Source of the DNA: Bacteroidia bacterium
GTDB lineage: Bacteria > Bacteroidota > Bacteroidia > Chitinophagales > UBA2359
DNA: 64,000 bases
Assembly: GCA_030427245.1 (NCBI GenBank)
Contig: JAUHXA010000009.1
Location: 1-64,000, forward strand
Direction of reading: 5' to 3'
Positions within the stretch are counted from its first letter, which is position 1; each line of letters starts with the position of its first letter. The translations under genes were made by a program, and so were the position numbers. Below are positions 3,420-62,443 of the stretch, piece after piece. The notes under the pieces are model-generated. The model did no database searches and was not told the origin of the DNA. It worked only from the letters and a program-made list of their open reading frames with translations.

Positions 3420-4385
3420 ATGAAAAAAATGTTATTCTTAGCCCTATTTATGGCGGCTTTCAGTTTACAGGCACAAACAGTAGAAGAGTTAAAAACTAAA
3501 AAAGCAGACTTAGTCTCACAACAAAAAGCGAAACAAGCAGAGGCAGATGCCTTCAATGCAGAAATTGGTAGTCTGACAAAACAAATCGAAGTCTTGTCGG
3601 GCTGGCAAACAGGTTTGAGTGGTTTGGTAGGATTAAATTTTGCAAGTTCTAACAACTGGCAGGCAAATGCCAACCCAAACAGTTCTTCCTCCACATTGAA
3701 TGTTGGAATCAATGCTTTCGCCAACAATATCAAAGAGAAAACCTATTGGAGAAACACCCTAACCACCAATGTCGGCTGGCAGGGATTGGACAATGACACG
3801 AATGACGATGAAGCGGGTTCGGATTTCTTGGAGGATAGAAATGTCGACCTATTGATTTTTTCTTCTTTGTATGGTTTTCGATTAAGTGAAGACATTGCAG
3901 TGACTGTCTTAGGAGATTTGAATACTTCTGTTTTCAATTTCCTTGCTCCCGGTACAGCGGATATTGGAGTCGGTGCTACTTGGACTCCAAAGGCTATCCC
4001 AAATTTGGTGGTTGTTGCGCACCCTTTGACCTATCACTTTGCTTTTTCTGCTTTTGATGATATCGAAAGTCAATCTGCAGTTGGAGCAAAATTGAAAGCT
4101 ACGTACTCTCATGAATTCCCAGGCGGCATCGTATGGTCTTCCAACTTTGGTACTTTTCTTCCTTATAGCAATGAGAAATTTCCGATTAGTTTCATTAACG
4201 AAGAGGGAGTGGAGCAAACGGGCGAAGAAGGATTGTTTGAATATACGTGGATCAACTCTTTGAATATTGCAAATGTGTGGAAAGGTGTAGGGGTTGGATT
4301 GACCTACGGAATCAGAGATGCGAAATTTGAATTCCCAACAGGAACTCAGTCTTATACAGCCATTGGTTTGACGTATGGATTTTGA
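3420..4385 (+). CDS. DUF3078 family outer-membrane protein
   Basis: Translation from ATG 3420 gives 321 residues with a clean Sec signal peptide (M-K-K-M-L-F-L-A-L-F ... L-Q-A-Q). The reading frame extends further upstream to 3252, but that extension runs through the terminator hairpin and is rejected. Residues 20-60 form a charged coiled coil. The rest is built of alternating beta strands, with the W-x-x-G-L-S-G and N-N-W-Q-A motifs of DUF3078 (barrel-like outer-membrane proteins of unknown role in Bacteroidota), and ends in Y-G-F. The gene is flanked by terminators and is probably transcribed alone. Confidence 0.75.
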   Translation: MKKMLFLALFMAAFSLQAQTVEELKTKKADLVSQQKAKQAEADAFNAEIGSLTKQIEVLSGWQTGLSGLVGLNFASSNNWQANANPNSSSSTLNVGINAFANNIKEKTYWRNTLTTNVGWQGLDNDTNDDEAGSDFLEDRNVDLLIFSSLYGFRLSEDIAVTVLGDLNTSVFNFLAPGTADIGVGATWTPKAIPNLVVVAHPLTYHFAFSAFDDIESQSAVGAKLKATYSHEFPGGIVWSSNFGTFLPYSNEKFPISFINEEGVEQTGEEGLFEYTWINSLNIANVWKGVGVGLTYGIRDAKFEFPTGTQSYTAIGLTYGF

Positions 4386-9707: not shown

Positions 9708-10147
9708 GTTTGGGTGTTTTAATTTTACTTTAATAAAAGCAATCTTTCTTATTTATTCAAAATTCTAGGATGCAAAATAAAGCATTATAATATGATATGA
9801 AAAATGATTTTGGTAAACCTGTCTTCAACATAGCATTTTTGTCAGAAGAATAATAGGGGTTTGATTTATTAAAGACAAATATTTTGTTTATTATTTTTTG
9901 AACTTTATTAAACAATATTTTTTTTCCTCACCAACATTTAAAATTAATCGAATTTTCACTTAAGCGTACAAAACCCTAAAAACAAACAAATTAACGCTGA
10001 ATTTTTAATAATCAGTGATTGTTTTTTCAAAATAATCCAAAAGGGAATTTTATTTTGTTCATTTATTAGCAAATAATTTTAAACAAAAATTTGCATTTCT
10101 CTTTTGGAATTCGTATATTTGTATCCTAATCATTAAATAACAAAATT
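9708..10147. other. AT-rich divergent intergenic region
   Basis: This gene-free 440 bp lies between the divergent giant secreted-protein gene and the ECF sigma-factor gene. It is very AT-rich, with many T and A runs, and contains the sigma-gene promoter annotated at 10090-10121. The promoter of the minus-strand gene must also lie here, but no unambiguous TAnnTTTG was found for it. No hairpin terminator or small gene was recognised. Confidence 0.6.
10090..10121 (+). promoter_or_regulatory. Bacteroidota-type promoter of the ECF sigma gene
   Basis: TTTG at 10090-10093 and TATATTTG at 10114-10121 match the Bacteroidota -33 (TTTG) and -7 (TAnnTTTG) elements, with a 20-bp spacer in the usual range. 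Transcription would start near 10127, about 20 nt before the ATG. Confidence 0.7.
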
Positions 10148-10663
10148 ATGGCTTCTAATAAATCATTTAATCAGCATGTACTGAGCTTGGCCTCCAACTT
10201 GAAACCCTATGCAATTAACCTTACCAAAAACTCAGATGAAGCAAATGACTTGTTACAAGAAACAATGTTTCGTGCTTTTGCAAATAGAGATAAATTTAAG
10301 CAAGGAACAAACCTAAAAGCATGGTTATTTACTATTATGCGTAACATATTCATTAATAAATATAGAAAAAAATCTAAGCGCAAGACGATTGTGGATACGA
10401 CAGAAAATCTTTATTACATCAATTCTGCTCAATCCACAATTCGCAATCGTGCAGAGTCTAATTTTGTGATGAAAGATGTGCTCTATGCCATCCAAAACCT
10501 GAATGATGATTATAGAGTTCCGTTTATGATGTATTACAAGGGATTTAAGTACCAAGAAATTGCCACAGATTTGGGTTTGCCATTGGGTACTGTGAAGAGT
10601 CGTATTTTCTTCGCTCGCAAGGTACTGAAGAAGGAGTTAATAGTTTATAAGGATTTAAAATAA
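10148..10663 (+). CDS. RNA polymerase sigma factor, ECF subfamily
   Basis: The 171-residue protein has both ECF regions. Sigma-2 is at about 10-85, with D-L-L-Q-E-T-M-F-R-A-F and L-K-A-W-L-F-T-I-M-R-N. Sigma-4 is at about 110-165, with the helix-turn-helix Y-Q-E-I-A-T-D-L-G-L-P-L-G-T-V-K-S-R. There is no adjacent anti-sigma gene. It resembles the stand-alone ECF factors common in Bacteroidota, a group that, as I recall, includes the P. gingivalis T9SS regulator SigP. Whether this one controls T9SS genes cannot be read from the sequence. A canonical housekeeping promoter precedes it and a MITE-like element starts 41 bp after its stop. Confidence 0.9.
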   Translation: MASNKSFNQHVLSLASNLKPYAINLTKNSDEANDLLQETMFRAFANRDKFKQGTNLKAWLFTIMRNIFINKYRKKSKRKTIVDTTENLYYINSAQSTIRNRAESNFVMKDVLYAIQNLNDDYRVPFMMYYKGFKYQEIATDLGLPLGTVKSRIFFARKVLKKELIVYKDLK

Positions 10664-10695
10664 GCGGGTGCATCCCAAACTGTCGCATTATGCTT

Positions 10696-10867
10696 GTTTT
10701 TTATCTCAGTACAGGACAAAACCTTATTTGAAGCAGAAGACCTTATAGGTTTAACCTCTAAAAGTATGTACAGGTTTGATAGTCTGCTTAAATTACATAA
10801 GCAAAAACCTATAAGGTTTGAGAGTCATGCTCAATAAAACGTTTTGTCCTTTACAAAGGTTTTTTAT
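10696..10867 (+). mobile_element. MITE-like element, family 1, copy A, with 9-bp target duplication
   Basis: The element occupies 10705-10858 (154 bp) and is flanked by the perfect direct repeat GTTTTTTAT at 10696-10704 and 10859-10867. The left end is CTCAGTACAGGACAAAAC. The right end, on the opposite strand, is CTTTGTAAAGGACAAAACG, giving imperfect terminal inverted repeats. Internal inverted boxes are CCTTATAGGTTT (10741-10752) and AAACCTATAAGG (10805-10816). It is about 95% identical by eye to copy B (62281-62434, inverted) and shares ends and layout with copy C (46741-46891). It is too short to encode a transposase, so it must be mobilised in trans. Confidence 0.85.
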
Positions 10868-10974
10868 ACAATTCAAGTTCCTTTGCTTTTATCAATTTTA
10901 TAAGTTCACCCCATTGTTGGTTCATATTCTTATAGGGAATCACTTAGTTGTGTTTAAAATGTACTTGTCATTTT

Positions 10975-11973
10975 TCAGTCAAACACATAATCCATTATTA
11001 ATGCATTGTGGTCAGAAATATAATGTTTTTTTGAATTGATGATTATTGAAGGAGTCTTGGTCTTCACCTTTTTATAAGGAGCTAAGGTTTCAATGACCGA
11101 GTTTGGATAAGGATAAGAAGTCATGATATAGTCCGAGACAGTTCCATTTTCTGCACTACTCCATGAAGGAAAGGTATAAGGCACTCCATCCATAATCTGA
11201 CTTTTGAAGAAACCATTATTTTCCAGTTTACCCATTGTTTGGTGATACAATGAATGTTTTTTGCTTCTATCTCCATGTGTATAATCCAAGTCTGCCACAT
11301 TCAAACCTCCACAAATCATGACAGGAACATTCACTTCAAATGTATAAACCCTATTCAGTATCCTATCAATTTGAGAGGCTGGATTGATAAACCCCAAGTG
11401 TGTATTGACAATCCAAATCGGATTTTCTTCAAACTCTAATTTTACTGCAATTGCTCCTCGGTCTTCGCCGGAAGCAGAATCAAAAATCTTCCACTTTTGC
11501 TCTTTGGGTTTACCTCCTTTTTCAGTTCCCTTCAAATTGGTGATGATTCCTATTCCATGATTCGGTTTTTTTTCATTGGAAGGGTCGTAGTAATAATAGT
11601 TCCATTCTTCTCCAAGACGGACTTGCAGCGCCTTCAAAAAATTCTTGTTTCCCGAACGGTTTTTATTGAAGTCCACCTCTTGCAGGCAAATCACCATTTT
11701 TTTATTTTCAATTTCAGATTCTACAATCTCCTTTTTTATGAAAGAAGTGAGGTGATGAATTGATTGCTGTACTTCTAAAAAATAGGGTTTGTTTGAGTCC
11801 TTTCTTTTTGCGTCCATACCAAGATTGAAGGACACTATTCGTATGGATTCTTTATTGACTTTAGAAGAAGCTACTTTACCATAGTTTGTGTTGTTTTGGG
11901 TAGTATCATTTACTGTAAAGCCAAAAAAACTCGCAAATAAAATAAGAATAGGGGTAAGGGTTTTGATGTTCAT
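10975..11973 (-). CDS. Endonuclease/exonuclease/phosphatase (EEP) family protein
   Basis: The 332-residue protein has a hydrophobic N-terminus (signal peptide or anchor, 5-20) and an EEP/DNase I-like fold. Recognisable motifs are S-F-N-L-G (Asn50), L-Q-E-V-D (Glu99, metal ligand), N-T-H-L-G (His192) and the terminal S-D-H (Asp321, His322). The usual G-D-x-N motif is G-G-L-N here (222-225), so the transition-state Asp is replaced by Gly. It is likely an extracytoplasmic phosphodiesterase or phosphatase of unknown substrate, possibly with altered activity. The start lies 6 bp after the stop of the DUF3667 gene, so the two probably form an operon. Confidence 0.72.
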   Translation of the reverse strand: MNIKTLTPILILFASFFGFTVNDTTQNNTNYGKVASSKVNKESIRIVSFNLGMDAKRKDSNKPYFLEVQQSIHHLTSFIKKEIVESEIENKKMVICLQEVDFNKNRSGNKNFLKALQVRLGEEWNYYYYDPSNEKKPNHGIGIITNLKGTEKGGKPKEQKWKIFDSASGEDRGAIAVKLEFEENPIWIVNTHLGFINPASQIDRILNRVYTFEVNVPVMICGGLNVADLDYTHGDRSKKHSLYHQTMGKLENNGFFKSQIMDGVPYTFPSWSSAENGTVSDYIMTSYPYPNSVIETLAPYKKVKTKTPSIIINSKKHYISDHNALIMDYVFD

Positions 11974-46731: not shown

Positions 46732-46900
46732 CTAGTTCAACTCAGTACAGGCAAAACGTTTCTATGATTCAGAATCCAAACCTTATAGGTTTTTTTCATA
46801 TAAATTCACCTCATCAATAAAATCCTATGCAACTTCAAGATTTAAACCTATAAGGTTTTATTTGGCAAATATATTTTTGTCCTGTCCTCAGCTTGTTCAA
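46732..46900 (+). mobile_element. MITE-like element, family 1, copy C (diverged), with near-perfect 9-bp duplication
   Basis: The element at 46741-46891 (151 bp) starts CTCAGTACAGGCAAAACG and ends TTTTTGTCCTGTCCTCAG. Its boxes CCTTATAGGTTT and AAACCTATAAGG are spaced almost as in copies A and B (51 versus 53 nt apart). The flanks are CTAGTTCAA (46732-46740) and CTTGTTCAA (46892-46900), 8 of 9 identical. The remaining internal sequence differs from copies A and B, so only ends and boxes are conserved. It lies in the 400-bp gap between the dehalogenase and CotH genes; the rest of that gap shows only a weak TATATCT/AGATATA hairpin near 46606-46630. Confidence 0.75.
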
Positions 46901-62271: not shown

Positions 62272-62443
62272 CAATAAAATCTTTGTAAAGGACAAAACGT
62301 TTTATTAAGCATGACTCTCAAACCTTATAGGTTTTTGCTTATGTAATTTAAGCAGATTATCAAACCTGTACATACTTGCTGAGGTTAAACCTATAAGGTC
62401 TTTTGCTTCAAATAAGGTTTTGTCCTGTACTGAGCAATAAAAT
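62272..62443 (-). mobile_element. MITE-like element, family 1, copy B, with 9-bp target duplication
   Basis: The element at 62281-62434 (154 bp, inverted relative to copy A) is flanked by perfect direct repeats CAATAAAAT at 62272-62280 and 62435-62443. Ends are CTTTGTAAAGGACAAAACG and GTTTTGTCCTGTACTGAG. The boxes AACCTTATAGGTTT and AAACCTATAAGG are both present. It differs from copy A at only a handful of positions, implying recent movement. It lies between the SUKH gene and the convergent TonB receptor gene. Confidence 0.85.

Follow-up and report, generated by a model that had tools for sequence, protein, structure and literature searches.

The window, the whole 64,000-nucleotide stretch of DNA that was analyzed (positions 1 to 64,000 of contig JAUHXA010000009.1 of a Bacteroidia bacterium), contains three copies (A, B and C) of a short element with terminal inverted repeats, two facing internal boxes and flanking 9-bp direct repeats. 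According to mechanically called open reading frames (ORFs), the genes flanking copies A and C are convergent and those flanking copy B are in tandem. The features are as follows.

10696-10704, no strand: left target duplication of copy A, GTTTTTTAT, a perfect 9-bp match to 10859-10867
10705-10858, + strand: MITE copy A, 154 bp, defined by sequence reading, BLAST and edge location
10705-10722, + strand: left terminal repeat of copy A, CTCAGTACAGGACAAAAC, identical to the left end of the resident insertion sequence (IS)
10738-10752, + strand: box 1 of copy A, AGACCTTATAGGTTT, one mismatch
10805-10819, - strand: box 2 of copy A, exact, AAACCTATAAGGTTT on the + strand
10840-10858, - strand: right terminal repeat of copy A, CTTTGTAAAGGACAAAACG on the - strand
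10859-10867, no strand: right target duplication of copy A, a perfect match to the left one
46732-46740, no strand: left target duplication of copy B, CTAGTTCAA, 8/9 match
46741-46891, - strand: MITE copy B (L021), 151 bp, old and diverged, ~72% identical to A
46778-46792, + strand: box of copy B, exact
46844-46858, - strand: box of copy B, exact
46892-46900, no strand: right target duplication of copy B, CTTGTTCAA, 8/9 match
62272-62280, no strand: left target duplication of copy C, CAATAAAAT, a perfect 9-bp match
62281-62434, - strand: MITE copy C, 154 bp, 96% identical to A, in the opposite orientation
62320-62334, + strand: box of copy C, exact
62387-62401, - strand: box of copy C, one mismatch
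62435-62443, no strand: right target duplication of copy C, a perfect match to the left one

Sequence reading and alignment bore out the locations of the three copies and their CTCAGTACAGGACAAAAC-type terminal repeats as given in a preliminary description of the locus, as well as the facing CCTTATAGGTTT boxes, which lie at matching distances (51-52 bp apart), and the 9-bp duplications, two of them perfect and one matching at 8 of 9 positions. The same alignment overturned the proposed relationship among the copies. A and B had been described as nearly identical and recent, with C keeping only ends and boxes, but it is A and C that are near-identical and B that is the old copy. Copy A has a 100% identical counterpart elsewhere in the genome (G000:C130:8425-8578), with a different 9-bp duplication there. 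Box matches with at most two mismatches numbered six in the window, compared with 0.26 expected. Open frames in copies A, B and C reach at most 50 codons, with no transposase gene among them, and an Rfam search of the window at gathering thresholds gave no match.

Genome-wide copies and their target duplications

The whole-genome search called for in the preliminary description was carried out by BLAST with a 184-bp query. In the 7.58-Mb assembly, 27 matches were obtained, which represent 26 distinct MITE copies (two matches overlap at C19). Fourteen copies showed 85-100% identity across at least 137 bp, and the remaining 12 (71-91% identity) are older, several of them partial. Copies with two ends are 151-155 bp long. 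The MITE was found in its own genome only among 40 genomes searched, its own included, and a plasmid collection gave no match; with regard to an empty-site comparison, none of the 39 other genomes searched has the MITE.

Target duplications were counted in the 17 copies with both edges located. L014, which lies at a contig end, and L015, L019, L020, L022, L023, L024, L025 and L026, in which one or both ends are unrecognizable, were left out. An exact 9-bp duplication was found in 10 of the 17 copies and a duplication with at most one mismatch in 13 (the one-mismatch cases being L016, L018 and L021, which is copy B), and no duplication of 7, 8, 10 or 11 bp fits any of them. In a control in which left flanks were matched with the right flanks of other copies, 0 of 272 combinations agreed at 9 bp with at most one mismatch. 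These results support the origin by transposition that had been proposed from the window.

Copies lacking duplications, which the preliminary description had named as evidence against a transposed family, do occur but form the minority: L009 (four mismatches), L010 (six), L013 (seven) and L017 (four). Sequence decay can explain the missing duplications in L013 and L017. The sequence of L010 does not differ from those of L006, L007 and L008, all three with perfect duplications, so that recombination, deletion or misassembly is needed at L010, which is probably a rearranged or misassembled site. As for variable ends, which had been named in the same place, the right-hand end does differ between subfamilies, being mostly TTTACAAAG or TGTACAAAG in recent copies and TGTACTGAG or TGTACTAAA in older ones. 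L001 and L002 have the same sequence, and both their sites and their 9-bp duplications differ. L002 and L010 (G000:C130, C77) adjoin a second repeated sequence, CCCCCTCrCCCCCTTCAAAGTGGGAAT.

Three copies split ORFs. The two flanks were read separately, not joined, and the flanking frames stay in phase after 154 + 9 bp are discounted, which is expected of simple insertions. L008 lies inside an ORF with an SprB repeat, a domain that points to Bacteroidota as the host, L011 inside a YhcG/DUF1016 ORF (DUF1016_N profile positions 1-103 before the insert and 102-137 after it), and L012 inside an unnamed ORF whose frame is in phase across the insert.

A probable insertion sequence with matching ends at contig breaks

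We searched the genome with the 18-bp end pattern at up to two mismatches and obtained 32 matches (16 per strand), compared with one for the control. Nineteen of them are MITE ends. The other 13 comprise seven left and six right ends of one IS, and their distance to the contig break is 122-126 bp in every case, the signature of a collapsed insertion sequence. Exact 9-bp duplications were found in four left/right pairs of these ends (contigs C39/C44, C91/C97, C113/C76 and C146/C23), giving the locus pairs L033/L052, L040/L057, L041/L053 and L045/L050. The five other ends, three left and two right, remained unpaired. The shared duplications suggest that such ends mark neighboring contigs of the draft assembly. 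BLAST with 126 bp of the left end returned seven matches, all of them IS ends at contig ends and none a MITE, suggesting that the IS body is absent from the assembly, and a transposase search of the genome with a cyanobacterial relative as the query gave no match. The full-length IS with the same ends that the preliminary description had suggested looking for was recovered as ends with 9-bp duplications, but not as a body.

On the left, the MITE has the same 18 terminal bp as the left end of the resident IS. On the right, the end of recent copies matches the IS left end at 15 of 18 positions and is identical to neither IS end. The two IS ends begin with CTCAG/CTAAG. The left end opens into a frame, ...VTKDNQKELLNL, presumably from a GTG start, and at the right end a frame, ...VLLSCT*, terminates exactly at the edge of the element, the last three bases being its stop codon. 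Of the parent transposase, ~40 C-terminal and a dozen N-terminal residues can be read, and the C-terminus is identical at 17-18 of 40 positions, without internal gaps, to 358-codon transposase ORFs.

ISs of 1158 bp with matching ends, exact 9-bp duplications and a 358-codon ORF were found in two other genomes, G740 (one examined) and G677 (three). The ...LLSCT* closing also occurs in Persicobacter (L182) and in cyanobacteria (L061, L062, L068, L181 and L184); it is not universal, being missing from an ISAba1-family copy and from a decayed copy in G223. Ten full-length relatives measured 1138-1179 bp, and some shorter, decayed copies exist besides. Seven of the ten carry an exact 9-bp duplication, which is absent in L061, L062 and L181. 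DRT[NE]W, ADREF and the whole of the YREK motif are present in the transposases of all four relatives examined. The L068 transposase matches Pfam DDE_Tnp_1 and NCBIfam NF033591 (IS4 family), and the L207 transposase matches NF033591 as well. The resident IS ends and these IS4-family relatives, with their CT ends and 9-bp repeats, agree with the IS4-like assignment made from the window, and the parent, judged by its relatives, is likely an IS4-family, IS10-subgroup-like element.

In L068, L206, L207, L182 and L184, the IS terminates on the right with the three bases of the transposase stop codon, so that LSCT, the C-terminus, is encoded by the terminal repeat itself. Such a coding role may help to explain the similarity of ends across phyla.

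Matching IS ends occur in cyanobacterial, Competibacteraceae and same-order genomes. Within the order, the exact 17-bp IS end was present in 9 of 396 genomes, including the own genome, and a transposase match to the cyanobacterial query in 14 of 298. In a scanned contig collection, the 18-bp end was present in 15 stretches, 10 of them labeled cyanobacteria; a few other stretches, with no IS nearby, may be chance matches. Three stretches of viral contigs carry the end pattern, by comparison of the ends only.

Conservation of the boxes and stand-alone hairpins

The AAACCTTATAGGTTT boxes are far better kept than the rest of the MITE. In four old copies found by the end pattern alone, the boxes are 93% identical, and none of 43 other equally arranged double windows exceeds 74%. 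For the full set of 12 old copies, which was found partly through the boxes, the values are 96% and at most 64% elsewhere. Two of the four copies found by end pattern, L022 and L023, have no recognizable left end and nearly intact boxes. These results indicate that some constraint or homogenizing force acts on the two palindromic boxes. Across the 26 copies, 21 of 390 box pairs have changed, all on one side only (15 to G-U and 6 broken), and 14 of the 15 G-U cells represent a single change common to recent copies. Since the changes are all one-sided, selection on pairing is not favored, and RNA-level selection on box pairing was not supported, for want of any two-sided (compensatory) change among the 390 pairs.

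The exact 15-bp box was also present in 17 of 395 genomes of a sample of the phylum, the own genome included. Eight other genomes have at least four copies each, compared with at most two in any genome for the reversed control. The last eight genomes have one or two matches each, which may be due to chance. Among the sites listed for the eight multi-copy genomes, 42 of 66 form 21 facing pairs 3 bp apart, that is, a 33-bp hairpin. Stand-alone hairpins in which two AAACCTTATAGGTTT boxes face each other, in most cases across a 3-bp loop, were recorded at L016 (G000:C173:64662-64694) and, elsewhere, at L185-L204, and there are several to many per genome in the eight sampled genomes of the phylum.

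We compared the gene context of 21 hairpins (20 of the 23 listed, two with 24-bp loops, plus the own-genome hairpin at C173:64662-64694) and the 26 MITE copies. Twelve hairpins lie between tandem genes, seven between convergent genes and one between divergent genes, with one unclassified; the corresponding numbers for the MITEs are 17, 6 and 1, with two unclassified. Thus, one of 24 classified MITEs, or one of 21 when the three copies inside reading frames are excluded, is found between divergent genes. This scarcity may reflect a function or mere promoter avoidance, and a binomial estimate of it, whose background was drawn from a single 64-kb window of mechanically called ORFs, is given little weight.

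What keeps the boxes intact was considered in the light of these results. A role in transposition, in which the boxes serve as a site for a host factor or the transposase or allow the strand to fold back, is a tentative possibility to which we would not commit ourselves. All 17 two-ended copies retain both boxes with at most one mismatch each, and single-strand folding is strong (z -6.55, -6.25 and -3.45), but the near-intact boxes of copies without a recognizable left end, L022 and L023 included, the lack of any box in four full-length IS relatives and the one-sided, in six cases broken, box pairs argue against it. It is somewhat doubtful that the boxes act after insertion, as a carried 3'-end/terminator-like or protein-binding palindrome. 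Their conservation in decayed copies is consistent with such a role, as are the stand-alone hairpins, which use the same palindrome and are seldom found between divergent genes (1 of 20 classified), as is also true of the MITEs; one hairpin, L146, begins 9 bp downstream of a tRNA-Arg gene and leads into a T run. However, a simple terminator scan of positions 10000-11500 around copy A found no T-tract terminator, promoter avoidance via purifying selection would yield an equal bias, and box pairing is not kept by covariation. A bolder form of this reading, which we consider rather unlikely, is that the MITE is a chimera that captured the 15-bp AAACCTTATAGGTTT hairpin motif, found stand-alone in other genomes, and carries it as a functional 3'-end, terminator-like or protein-binding module that outlasts the decay of the transposon ends. 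The element would then be a regulatory hairpin made mobile by IS10-type ends. The preservation of the boxes while old copies decay, together with their stand-alone occurrence, raises the question of whether a transposon is distributing a regulatory motif.

Origin of the family and comparison with known systems

The copies are dispersed, have defined ends and 9-bp duplications, and split reading frames, and the same genome contains a matching multicopy repeat with a transposase-like C-terminus. We consider it very probable that the window copies belong to one MITE family that is moved in trans by the resident IS4-family (IS10-subgroup-like) IS. The element is a non-autonomous unit whose ~154 bp leave no room for a transposase gene. 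The terminal repeats of the MITE would be recognized by the DDE transposase of the resident IS, which, acting in trans, would insert the MITE into staggered cuts, and repair of these cuts would produce the 9-bp duplications. Mobilization by the resident IS is deduced from the match of the ends.

The interior of the MITE is unlike the known ~125 bp at each IS end, suggesting a type II MITE, a class defined by sharing ends only in the available part of PMC10969869; as far as can be seen, the family appears to be of this type. It is very unlikely that it is instead of type I, an internal deletion derivative of the resident IS with IS-specific sequence kept inside the ends. In one subfamily the left ends do agree with the IS left end over 20 bp (CTCAGTACAGGACAAAACTA), the old copy L017 shares ~20 bp with the IS right end, and the MITE interior could still sit in the unseen IS body. 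On the other side, BLAST with the IS left end retrieved IS ends and no MITE, the IS right end and the MITE diverge, by eye, after ~20 bp, and no box was found in the four full-length relatives at up to three mismatches. That the family consists of stand-alone REP/REPIN-like hairpins spreading in another way, with the end similarity and the duplications being incidental, is extremely improbable. The box palindrome does occur outside MITEs, both in the own genome and in the eight multi-copy genomes, but the exact 9-bp duplications lie at the terminal repeats and not at the boxes, and the MITE end repeat is common to an IS. For the two-ended copies, a REP/REPIN-like origin is refuted by their 9-bp duplications.

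Several described systems resemble the family in part. The IS10 subgroup of the IS4 family is characterized, in the part of De Palmenaer et al. 2008 (PMC2266710) available, by CT ends, 9-bp direct repeats, YREK and a typical length of 1200-1350 bp. The MITE and the resident IS share the 5'-CT ends and 9-bp repeats of this subgroup, and the relatives' transposases share YREK, the catalytic region of the parent itself being outside the assembly. The ten relatives, at 1138-1179 bp, fall a little below that typical length, and the MITE has no transposase. A copy annotated as ISSysp2 family on a Picosynechococcus plasmid has the ends CTCAGTACAGGACAAAAA/CTAAGTACAGGACAAAAG, and one annotated as ISAba1 family on an Acinetobacter plasmid has related ends, with two and three mismatches in 17; the transposases of both are homologous to the query. 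Unlike the MITE, these are autonomous ISs, and the ISSysp2-family copy lacks a 9-bp duplication.

Among small elements, the Haloquadratum walsbyi MITE linked to ISHwa2 is likewise non-autonomous and assigned to an IS4-type IS, but it is 237 bp long, has 5-bp duplications and lives in another host (available part of PMC3852290). Correia elements and SPRITE, as far as covered by the available part of PMC10969869, are also short non-autonomous repeats that may carry regulatory motifs; they are other elements in other hosts, and the role of the boxes here is putative. A text search of the literature for the end and box sequences found no paper, and none of the literature listings on such elements names this MITE. 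Sources on MITEs, the IS4 family and Bacteroidetes, in the parts available, yielded a Porphyromonas element only. IS4-type ISs with MITEs are already known (PMC3852290, available part), and the present one is a new MITE family of an already known kind. It documents a MITE family on IS10-type ends and ties it to a parent IS hidden in the contig breaks of a draft assembly.

Two short structures with such ends were observed in other genomes. At G763:C4:1830-1872 (L208), two inverted IS ends span only 43 bp. In the filamentous cyanobacterium LEGE 07170 (L070), near position 3856, there is a 114-bp element with such IS ends and a long unrelated hairpin inside, which may be a further MITE built on ends of this kind.
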